DNA from: an uncultured Candidatus Actinomarina sp.
Lineage (GTDB): Bacteria > Actinomycetota > Acidimicrobiia > Actinomarinales > Actinomarinaceae
Direction of reading: 5' to 3'
Length of the DNA stretch: 64,000 nt
NCBI GenBank assembly: GCA_902619825.1
Contig: CACNFT010000001.1
Coordinates: 329,534-393,533, forward strand
The first letter of the stretch is position 1; each line of letters opens with the position of its first letter. The notes below the pieces were generated by a model that saw only the letters and a program-made list of their open reading frames with translations, was not told the origin of the DNA and searched no databases. A program made the position numbers and the translations under genes. Of the stretch, positions 49,003 through 55,631 are shown in pieces.

Positions 49003-50138
49003 CAATTAAAAAAGAATTTAAATCTGAGTTAGAATCTTTGCACAAAAGCCTGATTGAAGTAAACGACTGGATGTACGAAAATCCAGAACTTGCTTTCGAA
49101 GAATTTGAAACGTCTAAGTATCTCGTTAACTACATAAAAAAATATGATCCTGAAGTCATGTACCCAACACATGGTCTTGATACAGCTTTTGAGGTAACTT
49201 TTGGTAAAGATGGTCCTCTCGTTGTTCTTTGTGTCGAATACGATGCGTTGCCAGAAATTGGACATGCCTGTGGCCACAACATAATTGCCACTTGCTCGAT
49301 TGGAGCTGGATTAGGTCTGAGAAATCTTGTCGACCAACTAGGTATCAGAGTCAAGCTACTAGGAACTCCTGCCGAAGAAGGTGGTGGTGGAAAAATAATA
49401 TTATTAGACAATGGAGCATTTGAAGATGCAAAATGTTCGATGATGATTCACCCTGGTCCTTATGATGTGGCTAATCCTACATTTTCTACAATTCAACAAT
49501 ATAAAGTTGAGTTCTTTGGGAAGGACGCACATGCTGCTGGTGCGCCGGAAGAGGGTATAAATGCACTAGATGCCCAAATACAACTATTTGTAAATGCTTC
49601 TACGTATCGTCAACAAATGTTAAGAACTGATAGGATGCATGGAGTTATAAAAGATGGAGGGTTTAAGCCGAACATTATTCCATCTTATACTTCATCAGAG
49701 TGGTACCTTAGATCTTTAAACGAAGATGGGCTGAACAAGTTGGAACAAGATTTTTTAAATTTCGTAAACGGGGCGGCAATTGCAACTAAATGCAAATCAG
49801 ACGTTACTTCTCCAGACTTTAGATACCAAGAAATTCTAAATAATAAAACAATGTTCGAATTGTTTATGGAAAACTGTAATGAAATTGGAAGAGACATGCC
49901 ACTACAAGATCCGGCACAACTTGGCTTAGGATCAACAGATATGGGAAACATATCCTTCGCGATGCCATCTATTCATCCTATGTTGGCTATCGACTCAGGA
50001 GACGCAGTCAATCATCAGCCTGAATTTGCAGCAGCTACAATTGAAGCTGGTGGTCATAAAGCTATATTCGATGGAGCATATGGAATGGGTGCAACCATTA
50101 TTGATTTAGCTGAAAAAAATCTCTGGGATAAACTCTAA
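48999..50138 (+). CDS. M20-family amidohydrolase (PM20D2-like)
   Basis: [52 protein letters not shown]. Confidence 0.9.
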
Positions 50139-50863
50139 AGAATCTGACTTAAGAACAACTTGGTTCTGTCATTTTGAGGATTATCAAAAAATTCTGTGGG
50201 GGTATTTTCCTCAACCATCAATCCCTCATCAAATAACATAACTCTGTCGGCAACTTCTTTAGCAAACCCCATTTCATGAGTAACGACAATCATTGTCATT
50301 CCAGATAAAGCTAACTCTTTCATAGCATCCAATACCTCTTTTATCATTTCAGGGTCAAGTGCTGATGTTGGCTCATCAAATAACATTATTTTTGGTTCCA
50401 TTGCTAATGCTCTTGCTATTGCCACTCTTTGTTGTTGGCCACCAGATAGTTGGCCTGGAAATTTTGATGCTTGCTCAGGAATACCAACTCTTGTCAAAAG
50501 CTCCATTGCTTTTTCTTCTGATTCACTTCTGCTTTTTTTTCTAACCCAAATTGGAGCAAGAGTTACGTTTTGTAATACTGTCAGGTGTGGAAAAAGATTG
50601 AAACTCTGGAAAACCATTCCAACTTCAGATCTAATAGCTTCTATATTTTTGAGATCATTAGTTAACTCAATACCATCAACGATAATTTCACCCTCTTGGT
50701 GTTGTTCAAGTCTGTTTATACATCTTATAAAGGTTGATTTTCCAGAACCTGAAGGTCCACATATAACTAAGACTTCACCTTCTTGAACTTCCATAGATAT
50801 ACCTTTAAGAGCTTGGAAATCTCCAAACCATTTTTTAACATCGTTTGTTTTAATAATGCTCAT
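50135..50863 (-). CDS. amino-acid ABC transporter ATP-binding protein (AapP/GlnQ-like)
   Basis: [46 protein letters not shown]. Confidence 0.96.
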
Positions 50864-50866
50864 AAA

Positions 50867-52669
50867 TTATCTTTCTCCTAATCCTAATCTTTTTTCAACT
50901 TTCATGCTTCTTCTGGATAGAGTAAATGTAAATATCCAATAGAAAAATGCAATGAATAATAAGTTCTCTCTATCGTGGCCAACAAAATTTACTGGTATTG
51001 ATTGAGTACCAATTATCACCTTACCGATTGTGAGGAAATCAATAAGTCCGATAATCGTAACCAAACTTGAATCTTTAAATGCAGTTATCGCACTACTAAC
51101 TAACGTAGGAATAATTGCTCTTAATGCCTGTGGCATTACAATCAATGAAGTTTTTTGAAAAGGACTCATTCCTATTGCGTCAGCCGCTTCATATTGTCCT
51201 TTTGGAATAGATTGAAGTCCCCCTCTAATATTTTCTGCGAAATATGCTCCACTAAAGAATGCAGTTACCATAAGCACTCTTACAACTAACTCAAAGTTGA
51301 CACCTTCTGGTAAGAAAACTGCCATGGTAACGCTGGCAAAGAAAAGCCATGTAATATAAGGAACAGAACGAGTTAATTCAATAATTCCTGTACAAACAAG
51401 TCTAACAATAGGTAGTTTCGAGTTTCTTCCCAAGGCTAAAAGCACTCCCAAAGGAAATGAAACATAAGTTCCAAATATTGCAAGAAGCCAAGTTAGAGAA
51501 AATCCGCCAAAAATACTTTGCTGTTGTACGATAATCTGTGTATCTGAAGAGCCACCACGAATTAAAACAGATAAAGTAAATAGTGAAACACCCCAAACAA
51601 TAATAAGGTTTCTCTTACCTTTTGTAGATGAAGACACGGCTGGAATTACGATAGTAAATAACACAAGTAATAAGAGAGCTGATTTAAGAAGAATAGGGAC
51701 CGAGATAAAAAGTGCTATACCCGTAATAGCAATAAGTACACCCAAATATATAGAAAAATATTTCTCAACAACTGGATTGTTGATAAAGGTAATTGTCAAT
51801 GCTCCAATTAAAAAGATCCCTATAAAAATTGGTATATCCTGACCAAGAATTGTTGGTAGATCTATTTCTGGCTTTTTAAAAATCCATGAAAAAATAAATA
51901 ATGGTAAAAGAACCCACGAGATAGACATTGTTCTCTTAATATTTTTAGAATCTTTAAATCTAGAACCTATAAAATAAAAAGCTAAAAATAATCCAAAAAT
52001 GATAGTCCAAGGAGTCTTTGTTGTGTCAGCAATTGGCATTAAAGGATCTGGAAATATTCTTTGGTTACTGCTATCAAGCTGTATTGTCGGGAGCTTTATA
52101 ATCCACATCAAAACTATTGGTATTGCCAAATAAAAACATAATAAGTCTGATTTATTGAATTTGTAATTAAGTTTTAGATTCTTTAGTACAAAAAATACAA
52201 CAACTAATATTGCAGAAGGTATAAGGAGTTGTAAGCGTGTTTCCATCGGGAAGGACTCCTCTGTTTGAATGATTCCGTCGTTGTCTGTAACACTTGAAAA
52301 CGTAGGTGCTACAACAGTGAAGAAAAGAAAAGCTAAACTGACTCGCAGAAATTTTGAGAATACCTCAGATAATGATGATTCTTCAGTACTTTTCCACAAC
52401 CCTATAGACATTCCAGCAAAAACTAGAGCTAATCCTACAGATATCCACACCCTAATAAAATCTTCTTCAGGATATGCCTGGACCATATAAAGTTGCATAT
52501 TATTTAAGACAGACAGCCAGTCTTTATCAGATGCCATTGCAAATCCAAACAATCCTCTAAAGAAACCCAAGACAAAAAATGATGTAGCTACGGTAAGTAT
52601 TGATGATGGAATTGAAGAAAATAAGTTTTCTCTCATCCAGGCTATTGATTTTTTAAATTCTAAATTCAT
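50867..52669 (-). CDS. amino-acid ABC transporter permease (AapM-like) with enlarged N-terminal membrane region
   Basis: C-terminal IELTRSVPYITWLFFAS; AYFAENIRGGLQSIPKGQYEAADAIGMSPFQKTSLIVMPQALRAIIP. Confidence 0.88.
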   Translation of the reverse strand: MNLEFKKSIAWMRENLFSSIPSSILTVATSFFVLGFFRGLFGFAMASDKDWLSVLNNMQLYMVQAYPEEDFIRVWISVGLALVFAGMSIGLWKSTEESSLSEVFSKFLRVSLAFLFFTVVAPTFSSVTDNDGIIQTEESFPMETRLQLLIPSAILVVVFFVLKNLKLNYKFNKSDLLCFYLAIPIVLMWIIKLPTIQLDSSNQRIFPDPLMPIADTTKTPWTIIFGLFLAFYFIGSRFKDSKNIKRTMSISWVLLPLFIFSWIFKKPEIDLPTILGQDIPIFIGIFLIGALTITFINNPVVEKYFSIYLGVLIAITGIALFISVPILLKSALLLLVLFTIVIPAVSSSTKGKRNLIIVWGVSLFTLSVLIRGGSSDTQIIVQQQSIFGGFSLTWLLAIFGTYVSFPLGVLLALGRNSKLPIVRLVCTGIIELTRSVPYITWLFFASVTMAVFLPEGVNFELVVRVLMVTAFFSGAYFAENIRGGLQSIPKGQYEAADAIGMSPFQKTSLIVMPQALRAIIPTLVSSAITAFKDSSLVTIIGLIDFLTIGKVIIGTQSIPVNFVGHDRENLLFIAFFYWIFTFTLSRRSMKVEKRLGLGER

Positions 52670-54469
52670 TTATCTCTCAACAATCTTCAGTTTTCTGTTG
52701 TAAAAATTGATTATGCTAGAAATTGTTAAACTTACGGTACTGTAAAAGATCATCCATACAATAAATACAGGTAAAGTTTGTCCTTCCTGATTGTATAAAG
52801 TTTGACCGACAGCAACAATTTCAGGGAAAGCTACAGCTATCCCCAATGAAGTATTTTTTGCAAGGTTTAGATACTGATTACCCATTGGAGGCAACATTAC
52901 TCTAATTGCCTGGGGTATAACAATTAACCTCAGAAGAGCACTTCTTCTAAAACCTAAAGAGAGTCCAGCTTCAGATTGCCCTTTGGCAACAGCCATAATG
53001 CCTGCTCTTACTACTTCGGATATAAATATTGCAGTATATAAAACTACTCCAACCCAGGTTGCAAAATAGCCAACTGACAACTTTTTACCATAATCATCAG
53101 AATATCTCTTAAATTTTGTAGTACCTGTTTGCTCAATCCTTGGTCTTGATAATGTAAAGGGATCACCCTCTGTGACTTGAATTTCGTAAAACTCTTCGCC
53201 CACTTTAAGTGATTTACCTTCTTCAAGATAAAGTGTTTCAATAGTACCTGCGTACTTAGCAACAATTTCATACTCTACTTTTTCTTCATTTGGCTTTCTA
53301 ATAATGTAGGCATCAGCAATTTTATCCCCAACTTCTACTCTTGATCCTGGTTCGACTACCCAATTAATAATCTCTGCTTTTTTCATTTCTACATTTTCTT
53401 TTTCGATTTCAACATCATGCATTGGGAACCAATATAATTTATTTTCAATACCGTGGAAGAGTTGTGGAAGCCCCCAATCGGCTTTATAGGTCAGTTCATC
53501 TCCTACTAAAAATTTTGAGACACTTGCTCCAAATGATGTAAGAAAAAGAAAAACTAATAATACAACTATTGCAACATTAAATATTATTTTAAAATAATCA
53601 TCATCACTATAAATTCCCTGAGCTTCTTCAGATTTTTTACTATCAATAAATCTTTTGGTAACTCTAAATCCAATAAAAACTGTAATTGCCGAAAATAGAA
53701 TCTGATAAAAAATTCCTGGAACACTCTCTAAGCCTATTGAAAGATATCCTGCAATTAGACCAATTATTCCAACTACTCTAAAACCTCCGAACCATCCGAC
53801 AATAATAAGTACAACAAAAGATATCACGGCCCATAATGTTGGATATGTCTCTCTTCCTTCTTTTTCAAGGGTTCTAACTCTCCATTTAAATATCTGGTTA
53901 GCAATGTATAAAACTAAAATAAAGTAAACCATAAATAAAATCGCATTAGGTTCTCTATTTGGCCATGGGAATGCGATACCTTTTGCACTTGCATGAATTG
54001 TATATGTACCAATTTCTGATACTTCTAATCTAGGTAGTGTAAGTATCAAGGCTTGAAAGAAAAGAATTTGAACTAAAAGTGGTACGTTCCTCACGATTTC
54101 TAATATTCCTGTTGCACTTTTTTCCACAATATAGTTTTTTGATAGTCTTGCGATACCAAGCATTGTCCCAAGAATTGTTGCCGCAAAAATTCCTGTAACT
54201 GTAATCCTTAGCATGTTTAACATACCAACCTGAAGCATCTGTAAACCAGAAACTGGAAGGGTATACATTCCTTCAGCAATAGAAACACCTGGTGTTTCTC
54301 CCAAAAAATCCCAGGAAAATGCTATATTTGTTGATGCAAAGTTAGTTGATGCATTTCCTAAATATCTTAAGACAATGCTTATAAAACCAACAAGAAAAAC
54401 TATTTGGCTTAACCATTTTAAGAAAACAACATTTCTAAAAAAAAGTAAATATTTGAGAGCGCCTTTCAT
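52670..54469 (-). CDS. amino-acid ABC transporter permease (AapQ-like) with inserted lipoyl/biotinyl-like domain
   Basis: GTMLGIARLS..EIVRNVPLLVQILFFQ; YTAIFISEVVRAGIMAVAKGQSEAGLSLGF..IVIPQAIRVMLPPMGNQYLNL; insertion about aa 355-435 (53165-53407). Confidence 0.88.
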   Translation of the reverse strand: MKGALKYLLFFRNVVFLKWLSQIVFLVGFISIVLRYLGNASTNFASTNIAFSWDFLGETPGVSIAEGMYTLPVSGLQMLQVGMLNMLRITVTGIFAATILGTMLGIARLSKNYIVEKSATGILEIVRNVPLLVQILFFQALILTLPRLEVSEIGTYTIHASAKGIAFPWPNREPNAILFMVYFILVLYIANQIFKWRVRTLEKEGRETYPTLWAVISFVVLIIVGWFGGFRVVGIIGLIAGYLSIGLESVPGIFYQILFSAITVFIGFRVTKRFIDSKKSEEAQGIYSDDDYFKIIFNVAIVVLLVFLFLTSFGASVSKFLVGDELTYKADWGLPQLFHGIENKLYWFPMHDVEIEKENVEMKKAEIINWVVEPGSRVEVGDKIADAYIIRKPNEEKVEYEIVAKYAGTIETLYLEEGKSLKVGEEFYEIQVTEGDPFTLSRPRIEQTGTTKFKRYSDDYGKKLSVGYFATWVGVVLYTAIFISEVVRAGIMAVAKGQSEAGLSLGFRRSALLRLIVIPQAIRVMLPPMGNQYLNLAKNTSLGIAVAFPEIVAVGQTLYNQEGQTLPVFIVWMIFYSTVSLTISSIINFYNRKLKIVER

Positions 54470-54507
54470 TATAAAATTTTATCAAATAAATATGGTACTT
54501 ACAAAGC

Positions 54508-54531
54508 AAAAGGGGCTTTTCAGCCCCTTTT
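54508..54531 (-). terminator. intercistronic hairpin/partial terminator between binding protein and permease genes
   Basis: Minus-strand read AAAAGGGGCT-GAAA-AGCCCCTTTT, 10-bp stem with GAAA tetraloop. Confidence 0.75.
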
Positions 54532-54554
54532 ACATTTATATAAAGATAATTAAA

Positions 54555-55631
54555 TTATCTTGCAGGAGGTGCGTAAATTAACCCACCGTTTGTCCAACGA
54601 TCGTTAGCTCCACCTTCTCTGAAGAGACCTAATGGATTTAGGTTTCTTGAGTAGATTTGGTCATAGTTACCAACTTGCTTGATAACATTGTAGAACGCGT
54701 CTGCGCTAAGACCCATCTTTGTTTGAAGCTCACCATCATTTGCACCAAATAATCTTCCAAGTTCTGGAAGTGCGTCTGTGTCAACAGAGTCAACGTTTGC
54801 GCTAGTAACACCATACTCATCTGCGATGATTGTTGCGTATACTGTCCAGTTGACTACGTCTGCCCATTCGCTGTCATTTGATCTATATGTTGGTCCTAAT
54901 GGCTCTTTTGATATTGGTGATGTTGGGAAAATTACCCAATCATTAAGAGCGTCATTAACTGCTCTTCTACCAACAAGTGCTGAACCATCAGTTGTGATAA
55001 TATCACATTCACCTGCAATGAATTTGTCAACAGCTTCTGCGAAAGCTTCAACTGTAACAAGTTCGATTGTTGCACCAGCAAGTCCTGCACCTTCAGTAAT
55101 ATTCTTTTCGGTTGTAGTTCCTGCGTTAGTACATACTCTAAGTCCGTCAATATCAGCTAGTGTAGAGCTTTCGGTAATACCGTCTGCTTTTCTACCAAGT
55201 AATTGCTGACCATCAAAGTAGGTTGTAGGACCGAAGTCATTACCTAACTCTGTGTCACGGCTTTGAGTCCAAGTTGTGTTTCTAAAAAGAACATCAACCT
55301 CACCAGCTGCTAGAGATGTGAATCTTTCAGCAGATGTAAGTTGCTTGAATTCGACTTTACTGTAGTCGCCGAAAACAGCAGCTGCCACTGCATAACAGAA
55401 ATCAACATCAAATCCACCAAAGGATCCGTCATCAGCTTGCTCACTGAATCCGGTAGCACCAGTACTGATTCCACACTTAAGAAATCCTCTTTCGATTACT
55501 TCATCTAGTGTAGATTCATCTGAGTGATCGTGTTCTTCTTCAACTGCTACTTCCTCAACTGCTTCTTCTGTAGCACAAGCTACTGCAATCATAGAAAGTA
55601 TAAGTAAAGAAACGATTGCTTTTTTACTCAA
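54555..55631 (-). CDS. amino-acid ABC transporter substrate-binding lipoprotein (AapJ-like)
   Basis: Lipobox IAVAC; GFSEQADDGSFGGFDVDFCYAVAAAVFGD; TTWTQSRDTELGNDFGPTTYFDGQQLL. Confidence 0.93.
   Translation of the reverse strand: MSKKAIVSLLILSMIAVACATEEAVEEVAVEEEHDHSDESTLDEVIERGFLKCGISTGATGFSEQADDGSFGGFDVDFCYAVAAAVFGDYSKVEFKQLTSAERFTSLAAGEVDVLFRNTTWTQSRDTELGNDFGPTTYFDGQQLLGRKADGITESSTLADIDGLRVCTNAGTTTEKNITEGAGLAGATIELVTVEAFAEAVDKFIAGECDIITTDGSALVGRRAVNDALNDWVIFPTSPISKEPLGPTYRSNDSEWADVVNWTVYATIIADEYGVTSANVDSVDTDALPELGRLFGANDGELQTKMGLSADAFYNVIKQVGNYDQIYSRNLNPLGLFREGGANDRWTNGGLIYAPPAR

Follow-up and report, generated by a model that had tools for sequence, protein, structure and literature searches.

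An amino-acid ABC transporter permease from an uncultured Candidatus Actinomarina almost certainly houses a lipoyl-type barrel-sandwich domain within its own chain. The gene lies in a 64,000-nucleotide stretch of DNA (the window in what follows), and the host genome is 1.08 Mb at 90% completeness. The transporter itself is known, and the lipoyl-like insert gives its permease a new domain architecture; among the titles and abstract openings covered by a literature search, no description of a lipoyl domain in such a permease was found. This would be a single-origin case in which a metabolic carrier domain became an outward-facing part of a transporter.

The permease and its inserted domain

The protein has the hallmarks of an AapQ-like permease, namely HEQRo_perm_3TM and BPD_transp_1 domains, an EAA loop, and an operon shared with an SBP_bac_3 protein, a second permease, and an ATPase. 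In common with AapQ-type general L-amino-acid ABC permeases, which are type I importers, it has core TM1-5 with the EAA loop, additional TM helices separating core TM2 from TM3, and the operon order binding protein-Q-M-ATPase. What sets it apart from them is a lipoyl-like insert of 85 residues, housed in the final outer loop ahead of TM3. The features, all on the minus strand and in window coordinates, are:

54555..55631 (-), lipoprotein amino-acid-binding protein (SBP_bac_3), operon gene 1, with a TTG start and a lipobox-like AVAC
52670..54469 (-), AapQ-like amino-acid ABC permease of 599 aa that carries the insert; HEQRo_perm_3TM at residues 77-138, BPD_transp_1 at 473-594
53171..53428 (-), inserted segment, about residues 348-433 by alignment (search breakpoints 347/434), missing in the 515-520 aa orthologues of sister Actinomarina
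53189..53386 (-), PF00364 (Biotin_lipoyl) profile match, residues 362-427
53279..53281 (-), K397, which occupies the site of the lipoyl lysine and is replaced by N or T in some orthologues
53009..53065 (-), core TM3, residues 469-487, between the insert loop (predicted outside) and the EAA loop (cytoplasm)
50867..52669 (-), AapM-like second permease of 600 aa, operon member
50135..50863 (-), ATPase (GlnQ/AapP-like) of 242 aa, operon member

The spacer between the binding-protein and permease genes (window 54470-54554) contains a GC-rich hairpin, AAAAGGGGCTGAAAAGCCCCTTTT, which is likely an attenuating terminator that leaves the binding protein made in excess of the permease.

The first-pass annotation had read residues 355-435 (window 53407-53165, minus strand) as a lipoyl/biotinyl-like domain set between TM segments, directly ahead of the YTAxFIxEVVRAGI core, and both the identity and the placement are borne out. 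The Pfam search it proposed for this region returned PF00364 rather than no match: with a curated cut-off of 22.1 bits, residues 362-427 scored 27.5 bits within the whole permease (E 2.7e-6 over all Pfam) and the isolated insert domain scored 33 bits. Scores in the insert-bearing genomes ran from 22 to 42 bits against the same cut-off, and every one of the 16 distinct orthologues scanned gave a match at E <= 0.01 (best E 1.4e-9). When the whole genome was scanned, the permease emerged as its third PF00364 match, besides the biotin carboxylase/carrier and the E2 protein. A profile built from the other lipoyl/biotinyl domains of the genus gave the insert 40.7 bits, and 2000 shuffles no more than 8.3. 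A chance PF00364 match is excluded by these shuffles and by the orthologue matches.

Comparisons with known structures point the same way. A profile of the insert retrieved lipoyl and biotin carriers from among solved structures (1lab, E 2e-6), and a Foldseek search with a low-confidence model of the domain returned almost only lipoyl/BCCP domains (top E 6e-4; 1ghj, TM 0.66 on the target). AlphaFold2 confidence was low (pLDDT 35.7 for the whole permease and 48.8 for the domain alone, from shallow alignments) and the models are too poor to place the domain, so the Foldseek result counts as weak support. The insert shares with E2 lipoyl domains and free lipoyl carriers (PF00364) the two-fold barrel-sandwich motif, the PG and AG/TG positions, and about 20-38% identity, but it differs from them in its unconserved lysine, its longer hairpin, and its position within a membrane protein's outer loop. 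An HlyD-type origin was also considered and rejected, because Biotin_lipoyl_2 (best E 1.2e-4) and HlyD_D23 (0.0076) match far more weakly than PF00364 (7.6e-11) in profile comparison. The insert has no room for the helical hairpin of HlyD/MFP adaptor lipoyl domains.

Distribution and origin of the insert

The permease was found in 39 of 42 genomes of the genus. Twenty of these 39 carry the insert, 19 at full length and one in part (G167), and the other 19 encode an insert-less permease of 515-520 aa, for which the alignment stops near residue 347 and restarts at 434. None of the matches listed from other genera of the class Acidimicrobiia aligned across the insert, nor did any match in a 397-genome sample of the phylum, and none of 131 records in a plasmid collection covered 80% of an insert-plus-core query. 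In a permease tree computed without the insert columns, the insert-bearing proteins group as a single clade (100/97) that is nested among Actinomarina lineages without the insert. This distribution indicates one gain of the insert, inside the genus; we take the event for a gain, since neither the sisters nor the outgroups have the insert. The homolog survey proposed in the first-pass annotation thus finds the insertion in one clade of Candidatus Actinomarina, where the supposed modified lysine is not conserved. An assembly artefact was rejected, as 20 separately assembled genomes carry the insert.

The insert is under purifying selection and is retained clade-wide. Its dN/dS in three subclades was 0.04, 0.24, and 0.07, mostly above that of the rest of the permease, and between subclades it is the least conserved permease region (39% vs 62-89%).

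When used as a query against the genus, the insert additionally retrieved a stand-alone protein of some 90 aa in which the TDKVDMDL motif is intact:

L067:2852-3124 (+), L068:4319-4591 (-), L069:4402-4674 (-), L072:4299-4571 (-), and others: free lipoyl carrier, 90 aa

With the insert profile, these free lipoyl carriers scored 38-44 bits, compared with 23-30 for E2 lipoyl domains and 13 for the biotin carrier; the comparison spans some 75 aligned columns from genomes of similar composition, a similarity that may contribute to the scores. To judge from these alignments, the most likely donor would be a copy of the free 90-aa carrier of the same genus, the closest relative found. The carrier was not found in the window's own genome (90% complete). 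Where it occurs, its gene lies directly 3' of an E1-alpha/E1-beta pair in a cluster without an E2 catalytic domain, and PTS-like genes are nearby in some genomes.

Membrane topology and a proposed docking role

From TM alternation and positive charges, the loop that holds the insert (residues 314-468) is flanked by TM 295-313, which a basic loop precedes, and by TM 469-487, which runs straight into the EAA loop. In type I importers the EAA loop meets the ATPase in the cytoplasm. Because TM 469-487 separates the insert loop from this cytoplasmic loop, the insert is placed on the outer side and its loop is predicted to be extracytoplasmic. The topology check suggested earlier, which left cytoplasm and outside as alternatives, came out in favor of the outside. 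An outer membrane seems unlikely in Actinomarinales (PMC7771536).

We propose that a degenerate lipoyl-type domain entered the permease gene once, within Candidatus Actinomarina, and took the place of a short outer-face loop that links an accessory TM helix to core TM3. With the need for its lysine lost, the domain would no longer be a cofactor carrier. Instead, it would form a rigid unit outside the cytoplasm, next to the translocation entrance, where during amino-acid uptake it may position or stabilize either the permease pair or the substrate-binding lipoprotein. This role is suggested by analogy with MalF-P2 and with the lipoyl domains of adaptor proteins. MalF P2 spans residues 91-271, and its segment 240-249 directly contacts MalE (PMC3150292). 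Like the insert, P2 is a folded domain added to an outer loop in one of the permeases of a type I importer; it is longer, however, and its contact with MalE is demonstrated whereas that of the insert is putative, and no sequence kinship is claimed. Unmodified lipoyl domains serve as structural parts in efflux adaptors, and those of HlyD, MacA, and AcrA resemble the insert in doing so outside the cytoplasm (PMC8277102), but they belong to separate exporter adaptor proteins to which the insert's profile fit is far poorer. A docking or HlyD-like structural role, both raised in the first-pass annotation, is possible.

The best explanation overall is exaptation: a barrel-sandwich domain, left unmodified, that serves outside the cytoplasm as an accessory part. 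We hold this explanation at about even confidence. That the accessory docks the binding protein is a more tentative proposal, drawn from analogy. The full scenario, in which a carrier domain was copied, turned outward, lost its lysine, and now forms a clade-specific docking platform for the binding protein convergent with MalF-P2, is slightly more speculative again. Auxotrophy for Arg, His, and Trp is a trait of Actinomarinales (PMC7771536), and this genus, reliant on imported amino acids, has both insert-bearing and insert-less orthologues, so the effect of the domain could be tested by a clean swap.

Rival roles and the lysine position

The insert could instead be a tolerated passenger, a well-folding and harmless domain in a loop that accepts insertions, with constraint reflecting folding and not transport function. 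We consider this doubtful, though on a par with the full docking scenario. The outer loop does tolerate inserts, since a second Acidimicrobiia family (f29; L052:923-2860 (+) and the L053 permease ORF (-)) carries in it an unrelated, probably helical insert of about 100 aa with no Pfam match; by sequence comparison, the same loop takes inserts repeatedly. That the insert is the fastest-evolving permease region between subclades also fits a passenger, but it is retained in all 20 clade members at permease identities of 68-100%, in host genomes of about 1 Mb that are known to be streamlined, and its dN/dS is well below 1 in all three subclades. Trees searched for co-evolution of the binding protein with the insert showed no matching split, as a passenger would allow. 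In the binding-protein tree, three species without the insert are interspersed with insert-bearing ones (one-clade test p 0.02, for a group not strictly pre-set), and clear specialization of the binding proteins to the insert is therefore not seen. The binding proteins of the insert-less sister group (L041-L043) mix with insert-bearing ones (L013 and relatives), whereas the permease tree separates the two; recombination within the operon is possible.

An extracytoplasmic ligand sensor or wall/capsule anchor, which would bind a small molecule or envelope polymer and so tune or localize the transporter, is improbable. The predicted outward location suits it, the turn around the former lysine site is lengthened and clade-variable as a binding loop might be, and adaptor-protein lipoyl domains can gate substrate (PMC8277102). 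However, the insert has no conserved pocket or charged motif except the fold-defining PG and G positions, and its similarity to wall-binding domains is limited to one weak PASTA match (E 0.1).

Least credible is a lipoylated or biotinylated working arm on the permease. K397 does occupy the lipoyl-lysine position as first annotated, but it lies 11 residues from G408 and 10 from A407, not nine before AG; this spacing equals that of E2 and is exact to the next glycine in 10 of 19 orthologues. The position is K in 10, N in 8, and T in 1, with the lysine missing in two lineages, and a tight hairpin bearing a conserved lysine open to modification (DKA/DKV or MKM) was not found in the 19. The hairpin ahead of it is about 6 residues longer than in the genome's E2, and the DKA/DKV context is lost. 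Lipoate and biotin ligases are cytosolic. We reject the modified lysine suggested earlier because the residue is lost and the loop, predicted by topology only to be outer, would lie beyond these ligases' reach, which makes a working arm extremely improbable. A lipoyl-family match in such a permease accordingly does not mean a lipoylated protein. Of the conservation anticipated among orthologues, the lysine failed and the PG and G positions of the domain were kept.
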